Positions 14,739-48,748 of a stretch of DNA of 61,892 nucleotides are shown in pieces; the stretch's first letter is position 1; every line of letters starts with the position of its first letter. The notes under the pieces were generated by a model. The model made no database searches. It saw only the letters and a list, made by a program, of their open reading frames with translations, and was not told the DNA's origin. This DNA comes from Modestobacter altitudinis. GTDB lineage: Bacteria; Actinomycetota; Actinomycetes; Mycobacteriales; Geodermatophilaceae. The translations under genes were made by a program, and so were the position numbers. The stretch covers positions 1 through 61,892 of the forward strand of contig NZ_SJEW01000026.1 in NCBI RefSeq assembly GCF_005930475.1, written 5' to 3'.

Positions 14739-14869
14739 AGTGTCCTCCCGCCGCAGAGCCGCCCCGGAGCAGGTGCAGCGCGGAGATCCTCGCACTGTGT
14801 GCAGCAGTCGTGAGTGGGGGTGTCGCACGCGTGCATCGAGGGCGGAGGGTGACGCGTCCGATGAGTCGA

Positions 14870-18413: not shown

Positions 18414-18723
18414 CATGATCGGGCGCTCGGGTCTCAGGGCAGGACGAACAAATGATCTTCGGTCGCCATTCGCAACGACCTGTGGCGGTGAACTGGTGGC
18501 GTGACTCCTCGTCGCAGCGGTGGGACGATCACGGGAACTCCAGCCGTGCGTGCCGGGTCCGTAGGCCTTCCACCCGTCACATCGTGAGGGTGTGCTGCCG
18601 TAATGGTCGCACTCCGTGTGTGGCCCTTCACCTTGGGATGCGTTTTGTCGTGTGGCGTCCGGAAAAGGCGTTGGTTTCGTCGGTGAGGGTTTCGGTCTGA
18701 CCTGTGAACCCGCTAGGTTCCCG

Positions 18724-22108: not shown

Positions 22109-22178
22109 GGTCGCCACCGTAGGGGGAGACCCTTCGGTATCGGTCAAGGTCCGTCTCGACCTGACCGATGACAGGGAC

Positions 22179-24284: not shown

Positions 24285-25418
24285 TCAGCTCCGCTGCCAG
24301 AGGGAGACCCAGTCGACCTCCAGCTGGGTGACCGCGGGGTCACCCACGCCGCAGCCGAAGGACCCGCCACCACTCTGGCACCCGCCGGGCTGGACCTGGA
24401 TCGCCAGGTTCATCGGGGTGCTGGAGACGTTGGGGTGGTCGGTGGTCGCCCACGCCTGACCGTCGAGGGTGTAGGCGACCCGGCCCGGCGTCCACTCGAC
24501 GCCGATGGTGTGCCACTGGGTGAAGTCCGCCGTCACCTGCTCGCCGACCATCGTGTTGTTGCCGCCGTAGTGCAGCGTGCCGGTGGTGCCACCACGGTTG
24601 CCGCCCGCGTCCTCGGCGAAGTCGATCTCCGGCGGCCAGCTGTCATCGGCGGGCCACAGCAGCGCGGCGTACTTCATCTCGTCGCCCGCGTCGACGCGGA
24701 AGCGCATCTCCACCTTGCCGTAGGTCATCGTGGTCCGGTTCGCCAGTCCACCGGCGACCCACTCGCCGCCCTGCTGGCTCTGCGAGAGGACGAGCTTCCC
24801 GTTGCCCACCTGGACGTGTGAGGGATCCCAGCGCCCGTAGGGCGAACCGCCCGGCTGGCCGGAGTACAGCCGCCACTGGTTGCCGAGCGACGAGCCGTTG
24901 AAGTCGTCCGTGAACACCTGGCGCCAGCCGGCGAGGTCACCCTGGGGCGCGGACGTCCCCGCACCGCTCGCCACGACGGCCGGTGCCTGCGTCGCAGGCG
25001 TGGCGCTGGGTGCGGGAGCGGGTGCGGGAGCGGGAGCGGGAGCCGGGCGGGGCCGGCTGGTGGACGCCGACGCCGACGGCTGCGTCGGGACCGTCACGGG
25101 CGGCGTGGACGGCCGGGTGACGACCGTCGAGGGCGCGCTCGGCAGCGTCGGGACCGGGACGGGCTGCGTGGTCGGGGGAGTGACCGGGGTGGACGGGTGA
25201 CGGTGGGCGGAGTAGGCCTCCTGGGACGAGGCGTCCTCCGCCAAGGTGGTCTGGGCAGCACCCTCCGCGGGCCGCGGGTGAGAGCCGAACACCGCGGCTC
25301 CGGAGGCGCAGGTCGACATGGCCACCGCGGCTGCAGCCAGCATGCGAACGGACTTGCGTCGTGTGACGCCGCGGTATCGGTCGATCACCCTGTGTGCTGC
25401 CATGACGTGAGTAAACAT
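24285..25418 (-). CDS. Secreted GH16 glycoside hydrolase with Pro/Ala-rich linker
   Basis: The 377-aa protein has a basic N-terminus and hydrophobic export signal (RRKSVRMLAAAAVAMS), a long Thr/Pro/Ser-rich region, an Ala-Pro repeat linker to about residue 150, and a C-terminal GH16 domain. The catalytic signature E-I-D-F-A-E places Glu264, Asp266 and Glu269. A Cys pair in GGCQSGGGSFGCGVG may form a disulfide. It is the third of four GH16 proteins here and probably acts outside the cell on beta-glucan-like polymers. Neither ATG (25418 or 25403) has a ribosome binding site. The upstream region is clearly AT-rich and likely holds the promoter. Confidence 0.88.
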   Translation of the reverse strand: MFTHVMAAHRVIDRYRGVTRRKSVRMLAAAAVAMSTCASGAAVFGSHPRPAEGAAQTTLAEDASSQEAYSAHRHPSTPVTPPTTQPVPVPTLPSAPSTVVTRPSTPPVTVPTQPSASASTSRPRPAPAPAPAPAPAPSATPATQAPAVVASGAGTSAPQGDLAGWRQVFTDDFNGSSLGNQWRLYSGQPGGSPYGRWDPSHVQVGNGKLVLSQSQQGGEWVAGGLANRTTMTYGKVEMRFRVDAGDEMKYAALLWPADDSWPPEIDFAEDAGGNRGGTTGTLHYGGNNTMVGEQVTADFTQWHTIGVEWTPGRVAYTLDGQAWATTDHPNVSSTPMNLAIQVQPGGCQSGGGSFGCGVGDPAVTQLEVDWVSLWQRS

Positions 25419-25537
25419 GTCGACAATTCAGAAAGCGACGATCTGTGCCGCATCGATAGCAGTGAGTAACTAGAATCACACGAGCATCACGCGTCACGGC
25501 TGTCGGGGTGCCGGCCCCGGATGGGAAGTGCGGTGAC

Positions 25538-28495
25538 TCAGCTCTGCGACGCCGCCAGAGCAGCGTCCAGCTGGGCGGCCAGCTCGGCGCTGTGCTCGCC
25601 GCCGAGCAGCACGTGGTGGGAGCCGGGGACGTCCACCACGGTGAGGTCCGGGGCCACCCGGCGCCAGGCGTAGAGCAGATTGGCGACGACCGGCACCCGG
25701 AAGCGGGCCCGGAAGTAGGTGACCGGGCCCGCGTACGGTCCCCACTCGTACGCGTTGAAGACACGGTGGGCGGCGGCGAAGGTCGCCATCTCCTCGGTGG
25801 CAGGAGCGCCGTGCCCGAACCGCCGGCGGAGCACCCCGACCACCGTGTCCTCCACCATCCCCGGCACGACCAGCGCGATCCACCACGCCAGGGTCCGCAA
25901 CGCACGCGATGCCCGGGACAGCCTGCGGAACGGGGGCTCCGTGTCGAGCAGTCCCAGGAAGGTCACCGAGCGGCCCAGCGCAACCAGCTGTCGCGCCATC
26001 TCGTAGGCCACCAGACCACCGAAGGAGTACCCGGCCAGCCGGACCTCTCCCGCCGGCACCGCCTGCTGGACCTTGGTCACCAGTGACGTGGCGATCGAGG
26101 TGATGCTGACGCCGTCCCGCGTCGCGATCCGGGGGTCCGACGTCAGGCCGTAGACCGGTGCGGGCGTCCGGAGGGCGTCGACCAACGAGCGGTAGATGTC
26201 GACGTCGCCGAGGTAACCGTGCACCAGCAGCAGCGGAGCGGTCCCCGGGTCCCCGGCGCGCAGCACCTCCACGGGGCGGCCGTCCGCAGGCTCGCTGGTC
26301 ACCGCCCGCGTGACGCCGTCGACCGACGGGTCGGCGAGAAAGTCCTCGAGCAGGAGCGGCCGGCCGAGCTCCAGCCGCAGCTGACGCAGCAGCGTCATCG
26401 TCTGGCGCGAGGTCCCGCCGGCGTCGAAGAAGTCCGCGTGCCCGGGCACGGGCCCGCCGAGCACCTGCGCGAACACCGCGCCGACCGTGGACCGCACGTC
26501 GTCGCCCACGGCCGTGGTCGGCACGTCGGTCTCCGCGGCGCGGGCGGCCGCGGCGGCGAGGCCCTCAAGCGAGCCGGGGTTCTTCAGCGCCGACACGTTC
26601 CGCACCGGATCGCCGTCCAGCACGGCCCTCGCCGCGCTCTCGGACTTCTTGCCGTTGTGCGTCTGCGGTATCTCGTCGACAGGCAGGAGCAGGGACGGGA
26701 CGTGCGCGGGGGAGCCCTGACGCCGGAGCGTGCTGCGGATCTGCCGGGCCAGCGCGCCGTCCAGTTCCACCCCCGGCTGCAGGACGACCAGCAGCGCCAA
26801 CCGGGTGCTCCCGGGAGCCGCCGGGTCGCGGACCTCGACCGCGATCGAGTCGGCCACCCCGGGCACCGTGCGGACGATCGTGTAGATCTCCGACGGCCCG
26901 ATCCGCACACCGTTGATGTTGAGCACGCCGTCCGACCGGCCGTAGAGCCGTGACGAGCCGTCGACCGCGAACTCGATCCGGTCACCGTGCGTCCACATGC
27001 CAGGGTGCTGCGCGAAGTACGCGCCGCGGAACCGCTCGCCGTCGCTGTCCCGCAGGAAGCGGACCGGCCGCGACGGGAACGGGTTCCGGCAGACCAGCTC
27101 GCCGACCTCACCGACGACCGGTCGCCCGTCCTCGTCGAGGGCGGTCACGTCGAGGCCGAGGCTGATCGCCTGGCACCAGCCCGGCCGCACCGGCAGCTCC
27201 GGATGGCCCAGCACGAAGCACCCGACGATGTCCGTGCCGCCGGAGACGGAGCACACCGGCACCGGGCCGACGTGCTCGGCCACCCAGTCGAACTGCCAGG
27301 GGTGCAGCACGGCACCCGTCGACAGGACGGTGCGCAGGCGGCTCAGGTCGAGCGCGGCCGCCGGGGACCAGCCCTCGTCCTGGCACAGCTGCAGGTAGGC
27401 CGGGCTGGTGCCGAAGACCGTGACCCGGTGACGGGCCACCAGGGTCCACAACGTCTCGGGGCCGGCGATCGGACCGTCGTACACGACGACGTGGGCGCCC
27501 ACCGACAAGGCCGACAACTGCCAGTTCCACATCATCCAGGCCGTGGTGGTGTGGAAGTACAACGTGTCCGTCGGCCGGAGGTCGACGTGCAGCCGGTGCT
27601 CCTTCACGTGCTCCAGCAGCGAGCCGCCCACCCCGTGCACCATCGCCTTCGGAGGGCCGGTGGTGCCGGAGGAGAAGAGCACCCACAGCGGCGCGTCGAA
27701 TGCCTGCCTCGGCCATGCGGGACCCGGGTCGTCGGCCGGGACAGCAGCGACCAGCTCGGAGAGCCGAGCCACCCCGACACCCGCCAGCTCCGGCAACGGG
27801 AGGTCGTCGAGCAGGACGACCCGGCGCACGGTGGGCAGCTGCGCGACCAGCTCGCCCAGGACCTCGTCGGCGCGGCCTCCGCCACCCCCGAGCACGGTGC
27901 GGTCGACCAGTGCAGTGGTCGCCTCGACCTGACCGAACCGGCCGACCAGGGTGTTGACGCCCATGTCCGGGGTGGCGGTCGACAGCGCCGCACCCAGGCC
28001 CGCCACCGCGAGGGCAGCAACGGTGACCCGGGCGTGGTTGGCCGCGATGGCGAGCACCACGTCACCGGCGCGCACGCCGATGTCGGTCAGGGCGCGCGAG
28101 GTCCGGTGCGCGGCCGCGCGCAGCTCGCCGCGGGTCAGGGTCTCCGACGAGCCATCGCCGTGGACCGAGGTGAGTGCTGGCGCGCCGTCGTCGGCGTCGG
28201 GCAGCGGGCGCAGCAGGTTCTCGGCGTAGTTCAGCCTGACACCGGGGAAGAAACGGGCCTGCCGGACGTCGTCGCTGGTCGCGACGACCTCGGCGGAGCC
28301 CTCCCAGGCGAGGTCGGCCCAGTCGAGGAAGGTGCGCCAGAAGTCCTGGTAGGACGCCACCGACCACGCATGGAGCTCGCTCGGGGTGGACAGCTCGCGC
28401 CCCGCGACCGGCTGGCAGCGCGCCCGGAAGGCGGTGACCTGGGGCACTCGCGCCGCATCAGCGGATGTGTCCCGGGCAGCGTCCAGCGCGGTCAT
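25538..28495 (-). CDS. Acetoacetyl-CoA-synthetase-type adenylation domain fused to carrier protein and thioesterase
   Basis: The 985-aa protein has three parts. Residues 1 to about 640 match acetoacetate--CoA ligase: FSSGTTGPPKAMVHG, YFHTTTAWMMWNW, the C-terminal NGKKSE lysine motif, and VRNVSALKNPGSL, a typical AACS end. Next is a carrier domain whose FFDAGGTS gives Ser696 as the phosphopantetheine site. Last is an alpha/beta thioesterase with the GYSFGG elbow (Ser824) and a late GSHH histidine. It probably activates a small beta-keto or hydroxy acid, loads it on its own carrier and releases or transfers it. Its ATG overlaps the stop of the phosphopantetheinyl transferase gene (ATGA), so the two are translationally coupled. 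Confidence 0.9.
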   Translation of the reverse strand: MTALDAARDTSADAARVPQVTAFRARCQPVAGRELSTPSELHAWSVASYQDFWRTFLDWADLAWEGSAEVVATSDDVRQARFFPGVRLNYAENLLRPLPDADDGAPALTSVHGDGSSETLTRGELRAAAHRTSRALTDIGVRAGDVVLAIAANHARVTVAALAVAGLGAALSTATPDMGVNTLVGRFGQVEATTALVDRTVLGGGGGRADEVLGELVAQLPTVRRVVLLDDLPLPELAGVGVARLSELVAAVPADDPGPAWPRQAFDAPLWVLFSSGTTGPPKAMVHGVGGSLLEHVKEHRLHVDLRPTDTLYFHTTTAWMMWNWQLSALSVGAHVVVYDGPIAGPETLWTLVARHRVTVFGTSPAYLQLCQDEGWSPAAALDLSRLRTVLSTGAVLHPWQFDWVAEHVGPVPVCSVSGGTDIVGCFVLGHPELPVRPGWCQAISLGLDVTALDEDGRPVVGEVGELVCRNPFPSRPVRFLRDSDGERFRGAYFAQHPGMWTHGDRIEFAVDGSSRLYGRSDGVLNINGVRIGPSEIYTIVRTVPGVADSIAVEVRDPAAPGSTRLALLVVLQPGVELDGALARQIRSTLRRQGSPAHVPSLLLPVDEIPQTHNGKKSESAARAVLDGDPVRNVSALKNPGSLEGLAAAAARAAETDVPTTAVGDDVRSTVGAVFAQVLGGPVPGHADFFDAGGTSRQTMTLLRQLRLELGRPLLLEDFLADPSVDGVTRAVTSEPADGRPVEVLRAGDPGTAPLLLVHGYLGDVDIYRSLVDALRTPAPVYGLTSDPRIATRDGVSITSIATSLVTKVQQAVPAGEVRLAGYSFGGLVAYEMARQLVALGRSVTFLGLLDTEPPFRRLSRASRALRTLAWWIALVVPGMVEDTVVGVLRRRFGHGAPATEEMATFAAAHRVFNAYEWGPYAGPVTYFRARFRVPVVANLLYAWRRVAPDLTVVDVPGSHHVLLGGEHSAELAAQLDAALAASQS

Positions 28496-29202
28496 TCCCG
28501 GCCTCCAGGGACCAACGTCACGGGGGCCGGCAGGTCCGGGCCCACAGGAGTGCCGGTCGCGGCACTGGCCACGTAACCCGGGGGGACCGGGATCCGGGAG
28601 ACGTGCAGCTCAGCCACGGGCCCACCGTCCGAGACCGGCGTCACCGTGTCAACGGGGAGGCGCACCAGGCCGGTACCGCGTGCTTTGAGCACTGCCTCCT
28701 TCTGGGTCCACGCGCGGGTGATCGCCACGCCGCGCGCGTGCCCGGGCAGGGCCCGGAGCCGTACCAGCTCCTCGTCGGCCAGCCAGCCCTCCTCCAGGGC
28801 CGAGGTCCCGCCGTCGCGATGACGTTCGACGTCGACCCCGAGGGCGCCCCGGTCCGCGACCGCGATGAGGGCGAGGTCCTCGCTGGCCGAACAGGAGAGG
28901 ACGAGCTCGTTCCCCGGCAGGACGGGGCGACCCCGGTCGGTGCCCACCGGGACGTCGCCCGGGGAGAGCCCCAGCAGTCCGCCGAGCACCCGGCGGAGAC
29001 CGGCGCGCACGAGCACCCGGCGTCGCCGCACGGACGACGTGCCGCGAGCGGCTCGGGACAGTTCGGCGTCGGTCAGGCACGCCGCCTCGGCCGAGACGTC
29101 CCACCGCGGATCGGAGAGGTCCAGCGACCAGGCTAGGATGGTCGGGCGCGACACAGGGAGCGTGGGCGTGGACCCCGCGTCGTGCGCCGTCCTGGTCAGC
29201 AT
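28492..29202 (-). CDS. Sfp-type 4'-phosphopantetheinyl transferase
   Basis: The 236-aa protein shows the family motifs: LGVDVE with the Mg-binding Asp and Glu, and WTQKEAVLKARG (the W-x-x-KEA motif). It converts apo carrier domains to holo form using CoA. It is directly upstream of, and overlaps by 4 nt, the AACS-carrier-thioesterase gene. A second carrier synthetase is encoded divergently, so it very likely serves both. ATG 29202 was chosen over GTG 29220 because GGAG lies five nt before it. Confidence 0.92.
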   Translation of the reverse strand: MLTRTAHDAGSTPTLPVSRPTILAWSLDLSDPRWDVSAEAACLTDAELSRAARGTSSVRRRRVLVRAGLRRVLGGLLGLSPGDVPVGTDRGRPVLPGNELVLSCSASEDLALIAVADRGALGVDVERHRDGGTSALEEGWLADEELVRLRALPGHARGVAITRAWTQKEAVLKARGTGLVRLPVDTVTPVSDGGPVAELHVSRIPVPPGYVASAATGTPVGPDLPAPVTLVPGGRE

Positions 29203-29379
29203 CCTTGCTCCGTCCCACACTCGTCCCCGGCTCTGGCCTGGCTCCCCAGCACGGTATGCACTGGGTCACCCCGCCGCCGCCCTCGTCACCCGGATGAGCG
29301 AACCGTGCCACCTCTGACGTGGTTCCGGTGGTTCTCTCAGGACGGCCGACTGCTCAGTCACCCGAATGGTAGTTGGTTG

Positions 29380-29395
29380 GGACACAGAAGTGTCC
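29380..29395. promoter_or_regulatory. Candidate operator between the two synthetase transcription units
   Basis: A perfect 6-bp inverted repeat with a 4-nt spacer (GGACAC-AGAA-GTGTCC) lies in the lower-GC part of the divergent region, 67-82 nt ahead of the A-T-TE gene. No dedicated regulator gene is nearby. Confidence 0.3.
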
Positions 29396-29461
29396 TGGGA
29401 GCTCGCCTTGGTCCTGTGCGGCCGTTAGCGTTCACATGGCCCGAACTCGGAGGGAAGTCTG

Positions 29462-32080
29462 ATGTCCGTCACAGCGTCCGGCCGGACGGCGGTCCCGCGA
29501 ACCGCGGATCGTTCCGGGACGATCGCTTCCGCCTTCGCCGCCGTCGTCGCGGAACACGCTGCCGCGACCGCGGTCAGCGGGCAGGGCGCTCGACTGTCCT
29601 TCGCGGAGCTGGACGAGCGCGCGGCCGCGACCGCGCGCCGGCTGACGGCCCTGCTGCCGACCGACGCCGGCCCCGGGGCGCCCATCGCCGTCCTCGCGAC
29701 GCCCACGCCCGAGCTCGTCATCGCCGCGCTCGGTGTGGTCCTGACGGGTCGTCCGCTGGTCCTCCTCGACTCGCAGTTGCCGGCCGGCCGCATCCAGCAG
29801 ATCCAGGACATGGCGGGCGCCGCGCTGTGCGTGGTCGAGAGCCGTCTCGCCGAGCGCGCCGCTGAGGTCGACAGCTCGTGGCTGCGCACGGATCTCGACA
29901 CCGCCATCGCGCCGCCTGCCGGCACCGACGCCGACTCACCGCGCGCGGTGGCGGTGACGGCCAGCAGCCCGGCGACCATCGTGTTCACGTCGGGGTCCAC
30001 CGGCCGGCCCAAGGGTGTCGTGCACAGCCACGGGATGATCGTCACCGAGGCCGCCATCACCGCCCGGGAGATGGAGCTGACGTCGCGGGACCGGTTCGGC
30101 CTCCTCCTGCCGCCCTCCTTCAGCCTGGGTGAGCACACGTTCTTCGGCGCCCTGCTCAACGGGGTGGCGCTGCACGTGTACGACCCCCGGGACCGCGGTC
30201 TCCGCGGCCTGCCCGGGTGGCTGCGCGAGGAGCGGGTGACCGTCCTGTCCATGACACCGTCGCTGCTGCGCGCCCTGGCCGGCACCGTGCCGGTCGGCCG
30301 ACCGCTGGAAGAGCTCCGGCTGGTCGGCACAGCAGGCGAGGCGCTGCAGGGACGGGACGTGCGGCTGGCCCGCGAACGACTCGGACCCGTCGTCGTCGTC
30401 AACCACCTCGGCTCCTCCGAGACCGGCCAGCTGACCTTCGCGGCCATCGCGCCCGCCGACGCCGTGGGAGACGGTGCGGTGCCCGCCGGTCTCCCGGTGC
30501 CGGAGAAGGAGATCCGGGTGCTCGGGGACGACGGCGCTCAGCTGCCGGCGGGCGAGGTGGGGACGTTGGAGGTCATCGGCCAGCACCTGGGTCGGTACCT
30601 CGAGGGTGTCCCGGACGACCCGTTCGGGCGGGCTGCCGACGGCCGGTCGACCTTCCGCATGGGCGACCGCGGGCGCTACGACGAGGCAGGGGTGCTCCGC
30701 CAGCTCGGCCGGACCGACGATGCGGTCAAGGTGAACGGCTACCTCGTGGAGCCGGCCGAGGTCGAGGCCGCGCTGCGGGTCCTCGACGGCGTGGCCGATG
30801 CCGCAGTGACCGCGGTGCCCGGCGTCGGCGGCGCCGGCACGCTGCTGGTCGGGTACGTCGCGCCGAGCAGCGAGCAGCGCACCCCGTCGCCGGCGCAGCT
30901 GCGCCGCGGACTGACGGAGCTCCTGCCGAGCTGGATGGTGCCGGCTGAGCTCGTCCTCCTGCCGGAGCTGCCGCGGAACGAACGGGGCAAGGTCGACCGC
31001 GGCGCGCTGCCGGTGCCGAGCCGGTCCGACCCGGAGCTGCCCGAGGGGCACTGGGAACAGGTCGTCGCGGGGCTCTTCGAGTTGGTGCTGCACCGCCGTG
31101 GCGTCGGGAGGGACGAGTCGTTCACCGCCCTCGGTGGCGATTCGCTGGGCGTGGAGGAACTGCTCACCCGGCTTCGCGAGGAGCACGAGGTCGTGCTCAC
31201 CTCCGCGGACCTCGCCGAGAACCCGACGGTGCGCCAGCTGGCCTCCGTCGTGGGTCGGCCGGACACCGGGGACGACCGCAGGCGACGAGCGACGGCCCGG
31301 CGCCAGCACGCCAGCGTCGTCGCGCTGCGGCAGGCGGGCGCAAAGCCGCCCGTGCTGTGCTTCGCGGGCGCTGGCGCAGGGGGGCAGGTCTTCCTCCCGC
31401 TGGCCGAGGCCCTCGGCGAGGACCAGCCCGTGTACGCGTTCCAGCCGCACGGTCTCGAGGACTGGTCGTTCCCCGACCTGACCATCGGCATGGCCGGCCG
31501 CCGGCACCTGCGTCGGCTGCGGGCGGTCCAACCGCAGGGGCCCTACCGGCTGGTGGGTCACTCGATGGGCGCGCTGGTCGCCCTCCAGGTCGCCCGCCAG
31601 CTGAGCGCAGAGGGTGCGCAGATCGCCTCGGTGACCTTGGTCGACCCCGTCCTGCCGCAGGGTCTGGTCGACCGGGCATGGTCGCCCGACCCCGCCAGCC
31701 CCGGTGAGCACCCGCCCGTCGCCCCACTGCCCGGGGCACCGCTGCCCGGCGATGACAACTACGGCGCGCCACCGACCCGGCGCGAGTTGTGGCGTCGACG
31801 GCTGCTGGCAGGCGTCGCCGGTGCGTTGCCGCCGTCGACCGCGCGCACCGAGGGGCTGCTCGAACTGGGCGTCCGCGTCTCGCTGATGCACCGCCCCCAG
31901 CCGTGGGAGGGCCCGGCCACCGTCTACGTCAGCCACCTCAACGAGGCGAGCCTCGTGGTCTGGCGGCAGCTGCTGACCGGTGAGGCGACCCTGGTGACGC
32001 TGTACGGCGAGCACAACTCGCTGCTGCGCCAGCCGCACGTGGAGCAGGTCGCCCGGGGCCTCGAGGGGGCGGTGTCCTGA
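29462..32080 (+). CDS. NRPS-like synthetase, adenylation-carrier-thioesterase
   Basis: The 872-aa protein starts at ATG 29462 after GGAGGGAAG. The adenylation domain (about 20-510) has VFTSGSTGRPKGVVHSHG (A3), FRMGDRGRYDEAG and GRTDDAVKVNGYLVEP (A7/A8) and NERGKVDR with the catalytic Lys (A10). The carrier domain has LGGDSLGVEE (Ser561). The thioesterase has GHSMGAL (Ser701) and GEH (His851). There is no condensation domain. At core A4 the usual FD-x-S, whose Asp binds an alpha-amino group, is replaced by SFSLGEHTFF, so the substrate may not be an alpha-amino acid. It is divergent from the phosphopantetheinyl transferase gene. Confidence 0.9.
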   Translation: MSVTASGRTAVPRTADRSGTIASAFAAVVAEHAAATAVSGQGARLSFAELDERAAATARRLTALLPTDAGPGAPIAVLATPTPELVIAALGVVLTGRPLVLLDSQLPAGRIQQIQDMAGAALCVVESRLAERAAEVDSSWLRTDLDTAIAPPAGTDADSPRAVAVTASSPATIVFTSGSTGRPKGVVHSHGMIVTEAAITAREMELTSRDRFGLLLPPSFSLGEHTFFGALLNGVALHVYDPRDRGLRGLPGWLREERVTVLSMTPSLLRALAGTVPVGRPLEELRLVGTAGEALQGRDVRLARERLGPVVVVNHLGSSETGQLTFAAIAPADAVGDGAVPAGLPVPEKEIRVLGDDGAQLPAGEVGTLEVIGQHLGRYLEGVPDDPFGRAADGRSTFRMGDRGRYDEAGVLRQLGRTDDAVKVNGYLVEPAEVEAALRVLDGVADAAVTAVPGVGGAGTLLVGYVAPSSEQRTPSPAQLRRGLTELLPSWMVPAELVLLPELPRNERGKVDRGALPVPSRSDPELPEGHWEQVVAGLFELVLHRRGVGRDESFTALGGDSLGVEELLTRLREEHEVVLTSADLAENPTVRQLASVVGRPDTGDDRRRRATARRQHASVVALRQAGAKPPVLCFAGAGAGGQVFLPLAEALGEDQPVYAFQPHGLEDWSFPDLTIGMAGRRHLRRLRAVQPQGPYRLVGHSMGALVALQVARQLSAEGAQIASVTLVDPVLPQGLVDRAWSPDPASPGEHPPVAPLPGAPLPGDDNYGAPPTRRELWRRRLLAGVAGALPPSTARTEGLLELGVRVSLMHRPQPWEGPATVYVSHLNEASLVVWRQLLTGEATLVTLYGEHNSLLRQPHVEQVARGLEGAVS

Positions 32081-32200
32081 TCGCGCGGGCCGTCGGGCGG
32101 CGCGCCCGCACATCGAGCCCGTGCCTCATCCGTCGGTGTTCCTCCTCACGTCCAGGCTCGCTCTCAGCTCAGGCACAGGTTCGGGGGCGAAGCTGAGCAC

Positions 32201-33193
32201 ATGACCCGGTCGAGCTCGATGCCACGGTCCCTCGCCCTCGTCGCCGGGACCGACCACCTCGGGCCACCGGCCACGGTGTCCGTGGTGATCGCCTCCTACA
32301 CCGAGGCGCGGTGGGACGGGCTCACCGCTGCCGTCCGGTCCGCGCTGCAGCAGGACCGGCCCCCGCTCGAGGTGATCGTGGCGGTGGACCACGCGCCTTC
32401 CCTGCTGCAGCGGGTCCGACGTGAGCTCCCGGAGGTGCGCGCGGTCGCGAACACCGGTACGCCCGGTGCGTCCGGTACCCGGAACGCCGGCGCATCCGTT
32501 GCAGAGGGCGCCGTCATCGCCTTCCTGGACGACGACACCAGGGCGTCGCGGACCTGGTTGGCCGACCTCGTGCGCGGTCTCGACGAGGTGCCCGGGGCGG
32601 TCGGCGTGGGCGGGCGGGTCAGCGCGTCCTGGGCCGCCGGCCCGGCGCCGCGCTGGTTCCCGGCCACGTTCCTGTGGGCGGTGGGGGCGAGCTATGAGGG
32701 CATGCCGGGCGCGCGCAGCGCGGTGCGCAACGTCTGGAGCGAGAACATGGCCGTGTGGCGTCAGGACTTCGCCCGCGTCGGCGGCTTCCGCGACGGTTTC
32801 GGCAAGCTGGACACCAGCTCGGCCCCGGAGGACACCGAGTTCTGCATCCGCGTCGCCGGCGCCACCGGTCGCACCTGGCTCTACGAACCGGAGGCGGAGG
32901 TCGTCCACGACGTGCCGGCCGGCCGGGCCACCTGGTCCTTCTTCGTCCGGCGCTGCTACGCCGAGGGGAAGGGCAAGGCCGAGATGGCCGCACTCGACGA
33001 CGGGACGACCCTGGCGGACGAGCGGGGGCACGCGCTGCAGGCCATCCCGCGACGGATCCTCCGCGACCTGGCCGCTCCGCTGCGAGGGGACGTCTGGGGC
33101 GTCGCGCGTGCGTTCACCGCCGGGGCCGGGCTGCTCGCGGCCGGTCTCGGCTACGCCGCCGGGCTGTCGGCCGCGCGGCTGCCGCGTCGCTGA
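32201..33193 (+). CDS. Glycosyltransferase family 2
   Basis: The 330-aa protein has GT-A features (VSVVIASYTEARWDGL, NAGASVAEGAVIAFLDDDTRASRTW, VRNVWSENMAVWR, APEDTEFCIRV) and a weakly hydrophobic C-terminus (FTAGAGLLAAGLGYAAGL) that may associate with the membrane. It is clearly paralogous to the GT2 gene at 43401-44435; they share RWFP, VRNVW.xNMAV, GGF.D.FGK and the C-terminal layout. It probably adds a sugar, glucuronic or hexose type, to the repeat unit. Start is ATG 32201 or ATG 32219. Confidence 0.87.
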   Translation: MTRSSSMPRSLALVAGTDHLGPPATVSVVIASYTEARWDGLTAAVRSALQQDRPPLEVIVAVDHAPSLLQRVRRELPEVRAVANTGTPGASGTRNAGASVAEGAVIAFLDDDTRASRTWLADLVRGLDEVPGAVGVGGRVSASWAAGPAPRWFPATFLWAVGASYEGMPGARSAVRNVWSENMAVWRQDFARVGGFRDGFGKLDTSSAPEDTEFCIRVAGATGRTWLYEPEAEVVHDVPAGRATWSFFVRRCYAEGKGKAEMAALDDGTTLADERGHALQAIPRRILRDLAAPLRGDVWGVARAFTAGAGLLAAGLGYAAGLSAARLPRR

Positions 33194-33300
33194 ACCGCCC
33201 GTCGGGCGCTGCGACCCACAGGCGGTGGCCCACCCGATCCGGTGAGGTCACCGTCGGCGACGAGGGCCTCGCTGACCAGGTCGGTTACCCTGGGTGGACC

Positions 33301-34140
33301 ATGTCCCCGCAGACCACGGCCGTCCGGCCACCCCGCACCGGGCCGCGTCGGCGACGGGACGGGCGGGCGCGGGGGGTTCGTCGGGCGCTGTGCTCGAGCG
33401 CACTGTTATGGGTGCTGGCCGCGTGCACCACCAGTACGATCGAGGGCATCCCCTCCGGCAACGACACGACCTCGTCCACGCGCTCCTCCGCAGCCGATCG
33501 CCTCGGCTGGGAGCGGACCGGAGGCGACGAGTTCGCGAGTACCCACCTGGACCGGTCCACGTGGCGCCTCTACGGCGGGGTGGGGGCGAACGGTGTGGGC
33601 GTCCGGGACCCCGACGCCGTGTCCGTCAGCGACGGCTCGCTCGTGATCACGGCCCGCGGCGACGTCTCCGGCGGCCTCGCCTGGCACGCCCAGCCAGCGA
33701 CCACGTACGGCAAGTGGGAGTTCCGCGCCCGGGTCGAACCTGGCGCCGGTTACGCCCCGGCGATCCTGCTGTGGCCCGACTCCGACGTCTGGCCCCTGGA
33801 CGGGGAGATCGACGTGATGGAGATCGTGGCCGGCGATCGGATGACCAACCACACGACGGTGCACTACGGCGCCGACGACCAGCGTGACGAGCGCATCGTC
33901 AGCGGCGACTTCACGCAGTGGCACACCTACGCCGTCGACTGGCAGCCCTCCGGCATCACGGTGTACCTCGACGGCGACGAGATCTTCCGCACCACCGACC
34001 CCGATGCCATCCCGGACGGTCCCATGCACCTCGCCGTCCAGCTGGACGTCGGTCCCCAGGGCACCTGGATACCGCCGCGGGACGCGTCGACCCCGGACCA
34101 GGTCAGCCTCTACGTGGACTGGGTGCGGCTGTACCAGTGA
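33301..34140 (+). CDS. GH16 lipoprotein (beta-glucanase-like)
   Basis: The 279-aa protein has an Arg-rich N-terminus followed by a lipoprotein signal ending LLWVLAAC, so Cys is the likely lipidation site. The GH16 domain fills the rest. Its catalytic signature G-E-I-D-V-M-E (Glu169, Asp171, Glu174) is the most canonical of the four in this window. SGDFTQWHTYAVDWQPSGI and the final YVDWVRLYQ are typical. It should act at the outer membrane face on beta-glucan-like polymer. The next gene starts inside its stop codon (GTGA), so a phosphoesterase is translated with it. Confidence 0.92.
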   Translation: MSPQTTAVRPPRTGPRRRRDGRARGVRRALCSSALLWVLAACTTSTIEGIPSGNDTTSSTRSSAADRLGWERTGGDEFASTHLDRSTWRLYGGVGANGVGVRDPDAVSVSDGSLVITARGDVSGGLAWHAQPATTYGKWEFRARVEPGAGYAPAILLWPDSDVWPLDGEIDVMEIVAGDRMTNHTTVHYGADDQRDERIVSGDFTQWHTYAVDWQPSGITVYLDGDEIFRTTDPDAIPDGPMHLAVQLDVGPQGTWIPPRDASTPDQVSLYVDWVRLYQ

Positions 34141-35162
34141 CGACCGAGGGTGCTGCGGTCAGCGAGCTCGGGGCTCCGTCGGCCCGCAGGCGAGGGGGTG
34201 CGCCGCGGCGGGTGGCCGGCGTCCTGGGGACGATGCTCGGCCTCGCCGCCACGGTGGGTGTCCTGGCGCACCTCTACCCCTCGGGCAGCAACCGCCTGGT
34301 CGCCCTCAGCGCCTTCTCCTCCCACCTGATGGCGCTGGGTCCGCTGGCCGTGGTGCTGCTCGTGCTCGCGCGGCGCCGGTTGTCGGCGCTCCTCGCCGTC
34401 GCGCTCGCCGCGGTGTCGATCGTCGTCCTGGCCCCCACGTATGCCGGCGCCGGTCCGGTGGCTGCCGGGCCGATGCTGACCGTCCTGACCGCGAACGTGA
34501 AGCTGGGTGAGGCGGATCCCGACGGCGTCATGGCAGCTGTCCGGAGCGCGGGTGCGGACGTCGTCCTGCTCCAGGAGCTGGCACCCGAGCTGCGTACCCG
34601 GCTCGCCGCCGAGGGTCTGGACCAGGTGCTGCCCCACAGCGTCGTGGAGGCCCGGCCGGGAGCCGACGGCATCGGCCTGTGGAGCAGGTACCCGCTGGCC
34701 GACCCGCAGCGCGACCGGCTGACCTTCCCGTGGGTCGCGGCGAGGGTGGTGGTGGGCGAGGGTCGGCCCAGTGCCACCGTGCTCGCCTTCCACGCAGCAG
34801 GACCCTGGCCGCAGTCCGCGGACGAGTGGGTGCGGGACATGGCGCGGCTGCCCGGCGTGCTGGACCGGCTGGCGGCCGGGGCGGACGAGCACGGCTCGAG
34901 CGTCCTGGTCGGCGGGGACTTCAACGCCACCTGGGGCAACGCGCAGTTCCGCGCGCTGCTGCAGGACGGGTACCGCGACTCCGCCGAACAGCTCGGTCGG
35001 CAATGGACGGCGACGTTCCCGTCCGGCTACGCCGTGCCGCCGCTGATCGGGATCGACCACCTGCTCGTGCGGGGAGCCGCCGCCCAGGAGCTCCGGACGG
35101 TCGAGATCCCCGGGTCGGACCACCGCGGTCTCGTCGTCCGGGTGGCGCTCCCGGGCGACTGA
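34137..35162 (+). CDS. Membrane-anchored endonuclease/exonuclease/phosphatase-family protein
   Basis: The 341-aa protein has three N-terminal membrane spans (about 30-105) and then an EEP-fold domain facing outward. Visible motifs are TANVKLGE, LLQELAPE with the metal-binding Glu, GGDFNATWG, GIDHLLV and GSDHRGLVV with the terminal Asp-His. Family members cleave phosphodiesters in nucleic acids, lipids or other substrates. Here a role on an envelope phosphodiester, such as polyprenyl- or sugar-phosphate, is possible but unproven. GTG 34137 overlaps the GH16 stop by 4 nt. Confidence 0.85.
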   Translation: MTTEGAAVSELGAPSARRRGGAPRRVAGVLGTMLGLAATVGVLAHLYPSGSNRLVALSAFSSHLMALGPLAVVLLVLARRRLSALLAVALAAVSIVVLAPTYAGAGPVAAGPMLTVLTANVKLGEADPDGVMAAVRSAGADVVLLQELAPELRTRLAAEGLDQVLPHSVVEARPGADGIGLWSRYPLADPQRDRLTFPWVAARVVVGEGRPSATVLAFHAAGPWPQSADEWVRDMARLPGVLDRLAAGADEHGSSVLVGGDFNATWGNAQFRALLQDGYRDSAEQLGRQWTATFPSGYAVPPLIGIDHLLVRGAAAQELRTVEIPGSDHRGLVVRVALPGD

Positions 35163-35178: not shown

Positions 35179-35733
35179 TCACCCGACGGCAGCCCCGGGA
35201 CGCCGGTGCCCGGGGTCGTCCACGCGGACGACCTCCGCGGGGTTGCCCACGCACACACCCCATGCCGGGACGTCGCGCAGCACCAGCGCCAGAGCTGCCA
35301 CCCGGGCGTGTGATCCGACGTGCAGGGAGCCGACCACCACGCAACCGGCACCGAACTCGACGGCGTCCCCGGCGCTGGCAACCCCCTTCTCGGTGCCGTC
35401 CCGGCGGACGACGTTCCCGATGGTCACGTTCTGCCGCAGCACGCAGTCAGCGCCCAGCCGCACCCCGGGGTTCAGCACGATGCCGTGTGGGTGGTAGAGC
35501 CTCAGTCGTGGTCCCACCTCGAGGCCCGGCGGCAGCTCGATGCTCCAGAACAGCGACGTGAACAGGGAGTAGAAGGCCGCGAAGACCCGGCCGGGGAGAC
35601 CCCCGTGCCGGACGGCCCACTGGGCCGCGCGGAACCACGCGAGCACGAGCTGGGAGTCCAGGTAACCCGCGTTGACCGACCAGTCCTGGGTGACCCAGCG
35701 GAGCAGGCCCTGCTGCCGGCCGGGGGTCGTCAC
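35179..35733 (-). CDS. Serine-acetyltransferase-like hexapeptide acyltransferase
   Basis: The 184-aa protein has a left-handed beta-helix with hexapeptide repeats from about residue 75 (LRLYHPHGIVLNPGVRLGADCVLRQNVTIGN), the conserved His of the CysE/WcaB-type active site in the HPHGIV segment, and a C-terminal VGNPAEVV. The N-terminus lacks the long helical domain of true CysE. It probably acetylates a sugar of the polysaccharide. It is the last gene of the nine-gene operon, and GTG 35733 overlaps the previous stop (GTGA). Confidence 0.83.
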   Translation of the reverse strand: MTTPGRQQGLLRWVTQDWSVNAGYLDSQLVLAWFRAAQWAVRHGGLPGRVFAAFYSLFTSLFWSIELPPGLEVGPRLRLYHPHGIVLNPGVRLGADCVLRQNVTIGNVVRRDGTEKGVASAGDAVEFGAGCVVVGSLHVGSHARVAALALVLRDVPAWGVCVGNPAEVVRVDDPGHRRPGAAVG

Positions 35734-37586
35734 TGACCCGTCCCCACGTACTGGAACACCACCGCGTCCGCGGTGCGGTGCACCGTGGTCCAGCCGGGCG
35801 CGTCGGTGAGGGTCCGCTCGAGGGCCTGGAGCGAGCCGTTCGGGAGCATCCCGTAGTACTCGGCGTACTGGATCATCCCGGTGCTGATCATGAGGTAGGG
35901 CCGCTCACCCTGGGTGGCCATGAAGTCGTCGACCGCGGCCAGGTTGGCCTCGTCGAGCATCCGCCCACCCAGACCGGCGTAGCCGATGAGGTCCGGGTCC
36001 CCTCCGGATGACGGGACGCCGAAGCTGTTGTAGTCGCCGTCGAGCCGTCCCGGCGCGTTCTGCGCGCCGACGACGATCATCCGGCCCTTCTCGCCGTGGT
36101 CGTAGAGCCACTGCGCGGTCTGCACCTCGTTGCGCGGGAACGTCGTCCAGGCCAGGGTGCCGTGGAGCCCCTGGATGCTCGCCAACGAGGCCGCGACCAG
36201 GAACACCGCGAGAGCCGGGAGGACCACGCGCTGCCACCGGATGCGCAGCACCGCCTGCGCGATGAGGAAGGCGGTGAACGGCAGCGAGAACAGGTAGACC
36301 CGGTAGATGGCCTCACCGCCGTAGCTCTGCCCCACCAGGATGAGGAAGGGGGCGAAGGCCAGGGCCGCCGGCAGGAGCACGCGGCCCATCCGACGCCAGG
36401 ACGCCACGACGGCGACGGCGCCGAGCAGCCACACGGCCAGGGCCAGCAGCGAGGACACCTGGCTGGTGAAGACCTGCCCGGCCGTGCCCTGCGTCGCCGT
36501 GACGACGCCGCCCGCGTTGTCCCAGAACTTCAGGCTGTCCAGCAGCCCGTAGGCGCTGTTGATGAACTCCAGCCGCGGCGCGAGGTAGCCCGCGACGATG
36601 GCGATGCACCCCAGGACGGCCCAGCGCGGCCGGACCAGGCCGAGGACGGTGGCGAGGAACAGCCCGGCCACCAGGATGAAGGGGGACAACTGGTGGGAGA
36701 TCGTGATCGCGAAGACCACCAGGTACAGACCGGCCAGCGCCGTGGCGCGGGTCCGGGACGAGGTCTGGGGAACCTCCTCGGCACCGCGGGTGGACCAGGC
36801 CTTGAGCCGGCGCAGCAGTGCCGGCCCCCTCTGCCACCTGGTCGGGGTCCGGCGCAGCCAGGCCACGACCACCAGCAGGGCCCCGAGGCTCAGCTGGAAC
36901 GCGAAGGCCTGCGGCGAGAGGTAGGAGGTGCCCACCCACAGGCCGGCGTGGAAGAGGAACACCGTCAGGTAGGCGACCCGCCGGTCGGTGGACCAGTGCC
37001 GGGCGATGGCGTAGATCGGCAGGCAGGCCAGCAGGCTGAAGAACACCGGAGCCCAGGTGGCGAGCGCGAGGGTGCTGATCCCGGTGAGGTCGGCCAGCGC
37101 CGCCACCGCGGTGAACAGCGCGGGCCACTGCTGGTAGATGTCCCGTGGGTCGGTGACCCCGTGTCCCTGCACGAAGTACTCGACCACGCCGATGTGCTTG
37201 TACGTCCAGGCGTACTCGGGCATGGGGAAGAGCAGCGGGACAGAGGCGTCCAGGACGAGCACCAGGCCCAGCACGCCGGCCGCCAGCACGAGGGGGCGCC
37301 GACCAGCGGCGAGCTCCAGGACGAAGCCGGCGCAGATCAGTGCGAGGCCGACGAAGAACAACGGCCCGACCATGCCCAGCAGTCCGTAGTCGGAGCGGAC
37401 CGAGGTGTCGACCTGGGTCAGGCTCACCGCCCAGGCGACCAGACCGGCCAGCACCACGAGCGGAGCGCCCCAACGGCGGACCGGGGAGCTGGGGCGCGGC
37501 ACCTCTGCCGCTCCGTCGTCCCGGCGCTGTGGCGACGGGGCCGCCGTGGCACCAGCGAGGCCTTCCGGCGGCAGGGTGCGGGTCAT
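35730..37586 (-). CDS. Large multi-span membrane protein (putative membrane glycosyltransferase or polymerase)
   Basis: The protein is 618 aa from ATG 37586. About 13-14 spans are visible, with a periplasmic C-terminal domain of roughly 130 aa (WLYDHGEKGRMIVVGAQNAP and on). The first loop contains YKHIGVVEYFVQGHGVTDPRDIYQQWPALF, resembling the acidic-aromatic first loop of GT-C enzymes, though no clear DxD or ExD is seen. It may be a GT-C glycosyltransferase or the polymerase of a second polysaccharide. The start codon overlaps the previous stop (ATGA). Confidence 0.72.
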   Translation of the reverse strand: MTRTLPPEGLAGATAAPSPQRRDDGAAEVPRPSSPVRRWGAPLVVLAGLVAWAVSLTQVDTSVRSDYGLLGMVGPLFFVGLALICAGFVLELAAGRRPLVLAAGVLGLVLVLDASVPLLFPMPEYAWTYKHIGVVEYFVQGHGVTDPRDIYQQWPALFTAVAALADLTGISTLALATWAPVFFSLLACLPIYAIARHWSTDRRVAYLTVFLFHAGLWVGTSYLSPQAFAFQLSLGALLVVVAWLRRTPTRWQRGPALLRRLKAWSTRGAEEVPQTSSRTRATALAGLYLVVFAITISHQLSPFILVAGLFLATVLGLVRPRWAVLGCIAIVAGYLAPRLEFINSAYGLLDSLKFWDNAGGVVTATQGTAGQVFTSQVSSLLALAVWLLGAVAVVASWRRMGRVLLPAALAFAPFLILVGQSYGGEAIYRVYLFSLPFTAFLIAQAVLRIRWQRVVLPALAVFLVAASLASIQGLHGTLAWTTFPRNEVQTAQWLYDHGEKGRMIVVGAQNAPGRLDGDYNSFGVPSSGGDPDLIGYAGLGGRMLDEANLAAVDDFMATQGERPYLMISTGMIQYAEYYGMLPNGSLQALERTLTDAPGWTTVHRTADAVVFQYVGTGQ

Positions 37587-37987
37587 CGGGTCACCCGCCG
37601 GTGACGGAGCTCGGCCACGGCGACGGACACGACCGTCGCGACGGCGAGCACGAGCAGCAGGACGGTCGGCGACCAGTCGTTCAGCCAGGCCATCACCGCG
37701 GTGCCGATGGCCCACAGCGACAGGGACAGGACGTTGGTCAGCGCCACCGACGTCGACGGCCGCCCGGATGGCACGTGGGCCATCACGGCCGCCCCGGGGC
37801 CGGCGCAGACGAAGGCCAGCACGGTGACCAGCCGCAGCCAGGACGGGGCGTCGAGCAGGACGGCCGCGCTGGAGAGCACTGCGGTCACCAGGCCCACCCA
37901 GCCGATCGACCGCCGGGTGGACGGGATGGGCTGGTCGACTGCCGGTGCCGGGGTGCCGTCCTCCCGGACAGCCTGTGCGGTGCTCAT
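37583..37987 (-). CDS. Small four-span membrane protein
   Basis: The 134-aa protein has about four hydrophobic spans (roughly residues 30-48, 50-72, 82-100 and 106-126) and a basic C-terminus (ELRHRRVTR). No known family is recognised. It is translationally coupled on both sides by 4-nt ATGA overlaps, lying between the second hexapeptide transferase gene and the large membrane protein gene. It may be a partner subunit of the latter. Confidence 0.72.
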   Translation of the reverse strand: MSTAQAVREDGTPAPAVDQPIPSTRRSIGWVGLVTAVLSSAAVLLDAPSWLRLVTVLAFVCAGPGAAVMAHVPSGRPSTSVALTNVLSLSLWAIGTAVMAWLNDWSPTVLLLVLAVATVVSVAVAELRHRRVTR

Positions 37988-38592
37988 ACGGTTGCCTTCC
38001 GTCGTGGACCTGCAGCGCCTGCAGTTCCGACCTCCCGGACACGGCGCGCGGGGACCCCGGCGTACACGCCACCAGGAGCGCAGTCGGCCGTGACCACCGC
38101 ACCCGCTGCCACGATGACGTCGTCACCGATGGTCACCCCGGGGAGGACCATGACGCGCGCGCCGATCCACACGCGGTCCCCGATCCGGATCGGGAGCCCG
38201 GAGGCCGTCTGCACCCAGCCGCCACCGGCTGCGCGGTGGTCCGAGGTGATGAACAGCGCCTGCATCCCGATGGCGCAGTCGCTGCCGATCTCCACCGGTG
38301 CCACTGCCTCGATGTAGCAGCCCAGGTTGAAGTAGGTGCGCCCGCCGATGCGGACGTTGCGCGGATCCCCCTCCACTCGGAGCATCGGGCTGACGGCGAA
38401 CGAGTCGACCGTCATGCCGCCGACCCGGTACAGCCCCCGGCGCAGCACCTTGGGCACCACGAAGGACGCCGCGATGCGGTTGAACCACAGGTTGCGCAGG
38501 AAGATCCGCCCGTCGAGGCGGAGCTGTTCGGCCAGCAGGCGGAGGGACGCCGAGGACGACCGCTCAGCCGGCGGGGGGGCCGGGTGGATCAC
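37984..38592 (-). CDS. Hexapeptide-repeat acyltransferase (WbbJ/maltose-O-acetyltransferase type)
   Basis: The 202-aa protein has an N-terminal helical part and then hexapeptide repeats: NVRIGGRTYFNLGCYIEAVAPVEIGSDCAIG, with an ITSDHR segment carrying the catalytic His, then PIRIGDRVWIGARVMVLPGVTIGDD. It should transfer acetyl from acetyl-CoA to a sugar hydroxyl in the cytosol. GTG 38592 overlaps the stop of the flippase gene. A second hexapeptide transferase ends the same operon, suggesting two acetylation sites. Confidence 0.87.
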   Translation of the reverse strand: MIHPAPPPAERSSSASLRLLAEQLRLDGRIFLRNLWFNRIAASFVVPKVLRRGLYRVGGMTVDSFAVSPMLRVEGDPRNVRIGGRTYFNLGCYIEAVAPVEIGSDCAIGMQALFITSDHRAAGGGWVQTASGLPIRIGDRVWIGARVMVLPGVTIGDDVIVAAGAVVTADCAPGGVYAGVPARRVREVGTAGAAGPRRKATV

Positions 38593-42586: not shown

Positions 42587-43404
42587 GTCAGTTCGCGGTG
42601 CAGTACCTGCACAGCGGTCCGGCGGGCCAACCGCCACGCCGGCGCGGCGAACCGCTTGACGTGCGGGGCCACACCGGGTTCCCCGTCGCGGACGAGGGCA
42701 GCGAAGGCGTCACCGGTGACGCCCGGTCGTACGTGCAGACGTGGTAGACGGTACGGATCATCGCGGGACGAGGCGATCCTCCGGCCGACGATGCACCCGT
42801 TGGAGTAACCCGCTGCCGCGACGGCCCTGGCCACGCGCCGGGACGAGTAACCATGCGGATAGCAGAACGAGCGGACCGGGAGACCCAGCGCGTCCTCGAT
42901 CTGGTGACGGCTGTCGGCGATCTCGGTGCGCAACTCCTCCCCGGGGAGCACGTCCATCGTACGGTGGTTGACCGAGTGGCTGCCGATCTCGACGCCGGCC
43001 GCGGCGGCCTCGGCCAGTTCGCTCCAGCTCAGGCGTGACCCGTGCGGGTCGTCCGGGGCCAGCCGCAGGCCCACGTCCCCCGTCGGCACGTACATGGTCG
43101 CCCGCGCGCCCACCCGCTGGAGCACCTCCACGGCGTTGCGGAAGTCGAGGAGGCCGTCGTCGAAGGTGACGCCGAGGACCCGCGCGGCGGGGTCGGCATC
43201 TCGCCGCGAGAGCGCCTCGGTGAGCCCGACCAGCTGCCAGCCGTCCTCGGTCAGAGCCGACAGCTGGTCCTCCAGCTCGCCCACCGGGACCTGGTGCTCG
43301 TTCGGATGGGCCGAGGCGACCGCGGGCACTGAGTGGTACATGAGGACCGGCATCCGCCAAGTCGCCCGCCCACCGGCGGCGCCCCGGCCGGGTAGCGCGG
43401 TCAC
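42583..43404 (-). CDS. Polysaccharide deacetylase (NodB-type, CE4)
   Basis: The 273-aa protein has the NodB motifs: LMYHSVP at the start, VTFDDGLLDF (motif 1 catalytic and metal Asp), GSHSVNHRTM (motif 2 metal His pair) and SFCYPHGY (motif 3). It removes N- or O-acetyl groups from amino sugars. There is no signal peptide, so it may act on lipid-linked intermediates in the cytosol or be exported otherwise. GTG 43404 overlaps the stop of the upstream GT2 gene. Confidence 0.88.
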   Translation of the reverse strand: MTALPGRGAAGGRATWRMPVLMYHSVPAVASAHPNEHQVPVGELEDQLSALTEDGWQLVGLTEALSRRDADPAARVLGVTFDDGLLDFRNAVEVLQRVGARATMYVPTGDVGLRLAPDDPHGSRLSWSELAEAAAAGVEIGSHSVNHRTMDVLPGEELRTEIADSRHQIEDALGLPVRSFCYPHGYSSRRVARAVAAAGYSNGCIVGRRIASSRDDPYRLPRLHVRPGVTGDAFAALVRDGEPGVAPHVKRFAAPAWRLARRTAVQVLHRELT

Positions 43405-48685: not shown

Positions 48686-48748
48686 CGCGGACCAGACTGT
48701 GCACGACCATGATGCGTGCTGCCGGTCGGCGCGAACGAGGAGGTGGCC

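Follow-up and report, generated by a model that had tools for sequence, protein, structure and literature searches.

Positions 1-61,892 of contig NZ_SJEW01000026.1 of Modestobacter altitudinis (assembly GCF_005930475.1), termed here the window, were analyzed. At 25538-32080 it encodes an acetoacetyl-CoA synthetase (AACS)-type adenylation domain fused to a carrier (T) and a thioesterase (TE) domain, a phosphopantetheinyl transferase (PPTase), and a divergently transcribed synthetase with adenylation, carrier and thioesterase domains (A-T-TE), all within a Wzx/Wzz/sugar-transferase polysaccharide island. We put it at somewhat short of an even chance that the two synthetases, once primed by the PPTase, supply small acids for acylation of the polysaccharide. 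This reading draws on the domains, the catalytic residues, the operon-like overlap of the PPTase and synthetase genes, and the linkage to polysaccharide genes, all of which are directly observed. More tentative is the wider proposal of an undescribed carrier-protein route, in which PPTase-primed, single-module AACS-T-TE proteins and A-T-TE proteins without Asp235 would pass unusual acids to the polymer, and interchangeable synthetases would give the islands different acyl groups. If the acylation reading is right, nonribosomal peptide synthetase (NRPS)-like adenylation domains could choose the acids for surface polysaccharide acylation, beyond the stock acyl-CoAs, and a tri-domain family publicly annotated as acetoacetate-CoA ligase would be something else.

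The two synthetases and the phosphopantetheinyl transferase

The island was annotated by gene calling and Pfam, and further family hidden Markov models (HMMs) were run on selected proteins; outside the Pfam scan lie 1-579, three open reading frames shorter than 100 residues and part of the genes past 50.5 kb. The central features are as follows.

25538..28495, minus strand: AACS-carrier-TE synthetase (AACS-T-TE), 985 residues (family HMMs and Pfam)
25568..26236, minus strand: its thioesterase domain, triad S824/D851/H960
26303..26485, minus strand: its carrier (PP-binding) domain, phosphopantetheine Ser696
26540..28471, minus strand: its AACS-type adenylation domain, residues 9-652, with Lys616 and the signature W325, Q326, F473, R476, T502
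28492..29220, minus strand: PPTase of the ACPS superfamily, HetI-like (Pfam/HMM); the start is possibly the ATG at 29202
29462..32080, plus strand: A-T-TE synthetase, 872 residues (Pfam)
29537..31009, plus strand: its adenylation domain; Ser221 occupies the Asp235 position, and the pocket reads S L H S G A H Q L K
31061..31246, plus strand: its carrier domain, Ser561
31349..32077, plus strand: its thioesterase domain, triad S701/D728/H851; the Pfam match spans 630-734 only

The original prediction that an AACS-carrier-TE protein, a PPTase and a divergent A-T-TE protein lie together is confirmed by the HMM and Pfam domains and by the catalytic residues: alignments show that the adenylation Lys, the carrier Ser and the TE Ser, Asp and His are all kept in both synthetases. 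AACS-T-TE scores above the cut-offs of NF002937 (658.4 versus 639 bits) and TIGR01217 (581.4 versus 520.9 bits), and Pfam places PP-binding at residues 671-731 and Thioesterase at 754-976. The PPTase gene overlaps the AACS-T-TE gene by 4 bases on the same strand. Its product exceeds the ACPS superfamily domain cut-off (44.0 versus 25 bits), and scores 75.8 bits with the HetI equivalog, under the cut-off of 370. A divergent promoter shared by the PPTase and A-T-TE genes was considered and dropped, as comparison of the upstream regions over three species shows no clear conserved block. The window genome encodes two ACPS-family PPTases and four PP-binding carriers, two of which are those of AACS-T-TE and A-T-TE. 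Probably another of the four comes from a type II polyketide-like cluster (locus L166, G000:C115), recognized by sequence reading from two ketosynthase-like, a cyclase-like and a carboxylase-like gene.

Relatives of AACS-T-TE were collected by a pattern scan of genome contigs starting from the window protein, and the best 80 of 105 loci were used (genomes and loci bear our G and L labels). By record title, 38 of these are actinobacterial, Solirubrobacterales and kin included, and 42 are others, chiefly Burkholderiales. The proteins, found in Geodermatophilaceae, Burkholderiales and a few others, group separately from ordinary AACS; FastTree separates them from four canonical AACS with an SH-like support of 100, with a long-branch warning at L082. 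In 48 of the 81 loci, the window among them, the neighbouring gene encodes a PPTase (cluster c1 in 37, c6 in 11); where it is of c1, the two called genes overlap in 33 of 37 loci. Among 79 AACS-T-TE proteins of at least 900 residues, Lys616, Ser696 and TE Asp851 are invariant, the TE Ser is intact in 74 and the TE His in 73. Within the class, at least 2 of 394 genomes carry AACS-T-TE, a lower bound since two candidates were scored per genome.

Membership in the canonical AACS is split: the family HMM cut-offs are exceeded, and residues common to 13 canonical sequences are missing. R476 is found in 79/79 AACS-T-TE proteins versus Met in 13/13 canonical ones, F473 in 79/79 versus Met in 12/13, and T502 in 78/79 versus Arg in 13/13; W325 and Q326 are present in all 79, where the 13 canonical AACS have other residues, mostly F/I and L/A. 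C426 was rejected as a signature residue, as the structure 4WD1, which we take to be the AACS of Streptomyces lividans, likewise has Cys. The stretches WMMWN and SGGTD are retained; homology with acetyl-CoA synthetase places them along the acyl pocket. With these stretches kept and the five signature residues changed, AACS-T-TE probably takes a small substrate resembling acetoacetate, though not safely acetoacetate itself. Two tri-domain proteins (L123:17764-20853 and L125:17779-20847) are publicly annotated as acetoacetate--CoA ligase with a mevalonate-pathway Gene Ontology term and are possibly misannotated.

A-T-TE comprises the Pfam domains AMP-binding, AMP-binding_C, PP-binding and Thioesterase, with no condensation domain. 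Alignment with linear gramicidin synthetase puts Ser221 at the place of the Asp of amino-acid adenylation domains; the pocket positions were mapped by hand from motifs, following what we take to be the Asp235 numbering. Asp235 is absent in 19 of 22 rows of island homologues (two rows being one protein), with widely varying pocket letters, and in 11 of 11 A-T-TE proteins of other actinobacterial families. Since Asp235, the amino-group binder, is missing, A-T-TE probably activates a non-amino carboxylic acid, as judged from its pocket. The window A-T-TE lacks the properties of an amino-acid NRPS module: Asp235, a TIGR01733 score above cut-off and, among the island genes scanned, a condensation-domain partner. 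Homologues occur in 7 of the 59 near genomes (E <= 1e-90) and in 9 of the 47 AACS-T-TE genomes (E <= 1e-95), and 6 of 118 genomes of the class have a match, the first and last counts including the window's own genome; no plasmid copies appeared at E <= 1e-60. In other actinobacteria, paralogues without Asp235 occur as five copies in G213 and two each in G141 and G191, mostly without polysaccharide markers seeded from the window nearby.

Linkage to polysaccharide genes

Initiating sugar transferases (Bac_transf) and 59 AACS-T-TE copies were mapped on 47 genomes, with uniform placement as the expectation; because 150 of the 181 Bac_transf matches were listed, the observed counts are lower bounds. 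Of the 59 copies, at least 25 have a listed Bac_transf gene within 35 kb (2.8 expected), at least 15 within 20 kb (1.6 expected) and at least 6 within 10 kb (0.8 expected). The 35-kb linkage amounts to at least 19/32 in Actinobacteria and at least 6/27 in the rest. Fifteen copies share a syntenic setting beside mfd, which supplies 12 of the 25 linked copies. When this group is removed, at least 13 of 44 remain linked at 35 kb (2.0 expected) and at least 10 at 20 kb (1.2 expected), the count dropping to at least 3 at 10 kb (0.6 expected). Canonical AACS served as the control because no condensation domain over cut-off, and so no other NRPS gene, was found in 23 of 23 Geodermatophilaceae genomes. 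None of its 39 copies, drawn from 31 of the 47 genomes and mostly actinobacterial (6 being proteobacterial), has a listed Bac_transf gene within that distance of 35 kb.

A second comparison used phmmer with markers seeded from the window and flanks of ±10 kb, and 35 of the 39 canonical AACS regions, some of them cut short where the contig stops. At least two polysaccharide markers are present in 24 of 80 AACS-T-TE loci versus 0 of 35 canonical regions, and the density of marker matches is 5.1 versus 0.15 per 100 kb. Among the 38 actinobacterial loci 19 reach at least two, as do 5 of the 42 others; the counts are weak for Burkholderiales because the markers were seeded from the window. Low sensitivity outside Geodermatophilaceae is illustrated by L066, where Pfam finds a flippase, a GT4 enzyme and a GDP-mannose dehydratase adjoining AACS-T-TE or close to it; in L070 a flippase directly adjoins it. 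Some of the ten neighbours scanned with Pfam are non-polysaccharide genes (UbiA in L043, DUF2189 in L082). On the AACS-T-TE tree the marker state changes at least 14 times, gains and losses together; the labels for this count were made with a broader set of HMMs, by which 33 of 79 are positive, and the window count was entered by hand as 9. HEXAP labels were contaminated, as they tagged AACS-T-TE itself, and were excluded from the tree and flank marker counts; in the same labelling AACS-T-TE was often also labelled ATTE.

A-T-TE shows similar associations: at least 8 of its 14 copies have a listed Bac_transf gene no more than 40 kb away. In all four loci of the Geodermatophilus type (the window, L003, L006 and L045), A-T-TE and a GT2 gene are co-directional neighbours, with the PPTase and AACS-T-TE genes divergent from A-T-TE; the PPTase gene is uncalled in L006. 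Tandem A-T-TE pairs about 11-13 kb apart are present in G009, G060 and G069. G009 lacks AACS-T-TE, its sole match at E <= 1e-40 being a 29% ligase-domain match, and its island carries the same labels as the window: flippase, acyltransferase-3 (AT3), inositol-phosphatase family, GH16, GT2, Wzy-like, APS kinase and TupA. G007 and the genome of L026 both have AACS-T-TE with GH16, GT2-like and flippase-like clusters common to these islands, the latter two named by sequence reading rather than by Pfam. Either or both synthetases occur in the same island type across several Geodermatophilaceae.

Five of the 79 AACS-T-TE proteins (L022, L069, L073, L025 and L027) have lost both the TE Ser and His, the His being a gap in L069, and retain Lys616 and Ser696; in L063 only the TE His is changed, to Gln. 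All five of the former have polysaccharide genes beside them. The next gene, convergent, belongs to a hexapeptide acyltransferase cluster in L022 and L069 (Pfam-tested in L022), with beta-helix, Wzz-type or glycosyltransferase genes further out. A Wzc-cluster gene is next in L073, and an initiating sugar transferase in L025 and L027. The residue pattern, with loading kept and release lost, suggests a hand-off to another acceptor.

Weighing the evidence against known systems and alternatives

In the proposed scheme the PPTase would prime the carrier domains of both synthetases. Following the chemistry of established families, the AACS-type domain would convert a small carboxylic acid, probably a short one resembling acetoacetate, to its adenylate and load it on its own carrier, and A-T-TE would likewise load a different, non-amino carboxylic acid; the priming, the substrates, the identity of the acids and the transfer to sugar are the conjectural parts of this scheme. 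The cis TE, acting as an acyltransferase, may then move the thioester to its acceptor, which could be a sugar precursor, the polymer or a lipid-linked repeat. For copies with a dead TE, a partner acyltransferase might make the transfer. The outcome would be a polysaccharide with acyl decorations.

Several observations weigh against this reading. A cis TE usually releases its product. The best general model for the A-T-TE adenylation domain is amino-acid adenylation (TIGR01733), at 239.1 bits, below the cut-off of 317.4. No marker is found at 48 of the 80 AACS-T-TE loci, mostly in Burkholderiales, and fewer than two at 56, and the canonical control is largely actinobacterial. For the copies on Cupriavidus plasmid pENH92 and on plasmid p1 of Caballeronia sp. 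Lep1P3, the annotation as listed, incomplete for plasmids, shows no polysaccharide genes; four further plasmid records carry no annotation. All five TE-dead copies and 12 of the 25 linked copies belong to the one mfd-syntenic group and are not independent; the TE-dead copies thus represent few events. Ten of 11 A-T-TE loci from five other genomes lack any window-seeded marker match, which indicates that A-T-TE belongs to a wider family, probably recruited to these islands in Geodermatophilaceae.

The original prediction of a role in polymer decoration keeps real comparative support in the linkage, the shared islands, the missing Asp235 and the TE-dead copies, which suggest it and leave it unproven; the many marker-free loci and the plasmid copies show that it does not cover the whole families. 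Co-occurrence with polysaccharide genes, proposed there as a check, is seen for AACS-T-TE as enrichment relative to two controls, with the marker-free majority on the other side. A location mostly away from such genes had been named as grounds for rejection; this describes in part both AACS-T-TE, by the loci with fewer than two markers, and A-T-TE of other actinobacterial families, while the islands of Geodermatophilaceae are shared.

A D-alanylation-like logic had also been put forward. As in Dlt, activation and carrier loading occur near surface-polymer genes, and the sequence of activating, loading and transferring is alike; a literal Dlt system is not seen. The synthetases differ in that each has its own cis TE, in that A-T-TE lacks Asp235, and in that Pfam scans of the scanned island genes, which leave the rest of the genome unsearched, found no MBOAT/DltB or DltD family. 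The DltA model matches the A-T-TE adenylation domain at 137.1 bits, below the equivalog cut-off of 559.85. TIGR03098, the exosortase-A-system acyl-CoA ligase, which we take to be the AMP ligase of a system tied to exopolysaccharide loci, gives 150.7 bits, far under its cut-off of 592.35; no exosortase turned up in the island Pfam scans, beyond which no search was made. AACS-T-TE resembles acetoacetyl-CoA synthetase in its TIGR01217 score and the WMMWN and SGGTD stretches, and differs by the fused carrier and TE and by the five signature residues.

AT3 enzymes acylate surface sugars, and their donors are likely acyl-CoAs, according to PMC9558356. The window island has two AT3 genes, and AT3 genes adjoin AACS-T-TE in L050 (by Pfam) and L057 (by cluster). 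Carrier-bound acids, as proposed here, would differ from these acyl-CoA donors. Rhizobial exopolysaccharide carries non-carbohydrate groups such as 3-hydroxybutanoyl, as stated in PMC5748678; a link of these groups to AACS-T-TE is speculation by analogy. In the open-access literature, as represented by listings and the starts of abstracts, no description of AACS-T-TE or A-T-TE in polysaccharide islands was found, which leaves its absence unproven.

The chief alternative, which we regard as possible though distinctly on the doubtful side, is that both are autonomous small-molecule synthetases, whose TE would either self-condense a carrier-bound keto or hydroxy acid or set it free, giving a metabolite of the furanone, pyrone, lactone or quinone type. 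The polysaccharide genes would then be chemically unlinked neighbours or would glycosylate the metabolite. Fungal A-T-TE synthetases offer a precedent: according to PMC9047271, their TE condenses two aromatic alpha-keto acids to furanone or quinone products. A-T-TE of the window resembles these non-reducing NRPS-like enzymes in layout, in having no condensation domain and in its likely non-amino substrate. It differs in being bacterial and in lying in a polysaccharide island. The marker-free A-T-TE loci in other actinobacterial families, the two annotated plasmids on which AACS-T-TE occurs without polysaccharide genes, and the TE Ser retained in most AACS-T-TE proteins fit this alternative as well. 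The controlled linkage of AACS-T-TE to polysaccharide genes argues for acylation instead, as do the TE-dead copies with adenylation and carrier residues kept, and no obvious metabolite tailoring gene directly adjoins the window synthetases. Were the small-molecule alternative true, a one-gene metabolite synthetase family across Actinobacteria and Burkholderiales would be concealed under a ligase name.

Incidental co-location, in which both gene classes are accessory and gather in the same variable regions, is unlikely. In its favour, the islands are variable and many AACS-T-TE copies lie elsewhere; the planned accessory-gene control, other NRPS genes, was precluded by the lack of any condensation domain over cut-off in the 23 Geodermatophilaceae genomes. 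Against it stand the repeated changes of marker state on the tree, the linkage that persists outside the syntenic group, and the conserved order of GT2, A-T-TE, PPTase and AACS-T-TE in the Geodermatophilus loci (PPTase uncalled in L006). Less likely again is a metabolic role for AACS-T-TE, in which it would activate acetoacetate without CoA or act as an acyl store for central metabolism. Such a role would suit the curated AACS models and the public annotation and is disfavoured by separate carrier-free AACS-like ligases in the window genome (G000:C91 and C75), by the distance of the tri-domain group from the four canonical AACS on the tree and from 13 at five nearly fixed positions, and by the frequent PPTase neighbour.

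Other genes of the island

The remaining features, by Pfam unless stated, are given below.

10392..11735, minus strand: Wzz chain-length determinant; an AAA_31 kinase-like match is below cut-off
12226..13407, plus strand: acyltransferase-3 protein
13419..15344, minus strand: Wzx-type flippase family; start probably near 14699
14870..16240, minus strand: polytopic membrane protein with no Pfam match, Wzy-like solely in its position and hydropathy
16655..17830, plus strand: acyltransferase-3 protein
18616..20340, plus strand: initiating sugar transferase (Bac_transf)
24285..25418, minus strand: GH16-family protein
32201..33193, plus strand: GT2 glycosyltransferase
33412..34140, plus strand: GH16-family protein
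34212..35162, plus strand: endonuclease/exonuclease/phosphatase (EEP)-family protein with predicted membrane segments, scanned as 33918-35162
35179..35733, minus strand: hexapeptide acyltransferase-like (25.1 bits, under the cut-off of 27)
35730..37586, minus strand: polytopic membrane protein with no Pfam match, Wzy-like solely in its position and hydropathy
37984..38592, minus strand: hexapeptide O-acetyltransferase-like (Pfam/HMM)
38589..40016, minus strand: Wzx-type flippase family
40013..42637, minus strand: protein with two GT2 domains (Pfam/HMM)
48716..49597, plus strand: TupA-like ATP-grasp protein

GH16 genes at 24285 and 33412 and the GT2 gene at 32201 flank the synthetases as had been predicted, and the island as a whole encodes several enzymes of the GT2 and GT4 families, a total of four GH16 proteins and a polysaccharide deacetylase. 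Neither condensation nor ketosynthase families were found in Pfam scans of the scanned island genes, in agreement with the earlier claim. That no dedicated export genes are present needs a qualifier, as two flippase-family proteins occur in the island. The view that this is not an ordinary peptide cluster stands. A condensation domain over cut-off was found in 0 of 23 Geodermatophilaceae genomes, a set outside which the window's genome lies, with weak sub-cut-off matches in 4, so that one would not expect peptides to be assembled there in the usual way by condensation domains. The original prediction had not considered that condensation-free A-T-TE proteins are a known kind, as the fungal examples in PMC9047271 indicate.

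Sulfation was considered and set aside: an APS kinase and an inositol-phosphatase-family gene are there, yet no sulfotransferase family was found in the window Pfam scans. The APS-kinase domain (45915-46943) is fused to an N-terminal half without family assignment, and both its label and that of the inositol-monophosphatase-family gene (20911-21660) recur in the G009 island. None of AACS-T-TE, PPTase and A-T-TE gave a PADLOC match at E <= 0.001 that would point to a defence role. The two-GT2 protein at 40013-42637 matches the mycofactocin glycosyltransferase MftF below cut-off (193.5 versus 280 bits). The TupA-like protein (48716-49597), of a family we take to belong to teichuronopeptide synthesis, is a possible amino-acid-to-polymer ligase. 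At 21647-22756, a longer reading frame carries a Rifampin ADP-ribosyltransferase (Arr) domain at its C terminus. We also note a candidate secreted esterase at 23053-24012, alpha/beta hydrolase-like by weak sub-cut-off Pfam matches and with a Tat/lipoprotein-like start by reading, whose phmmer relatives (label AHL17) are present in the G009 and G007 islands.

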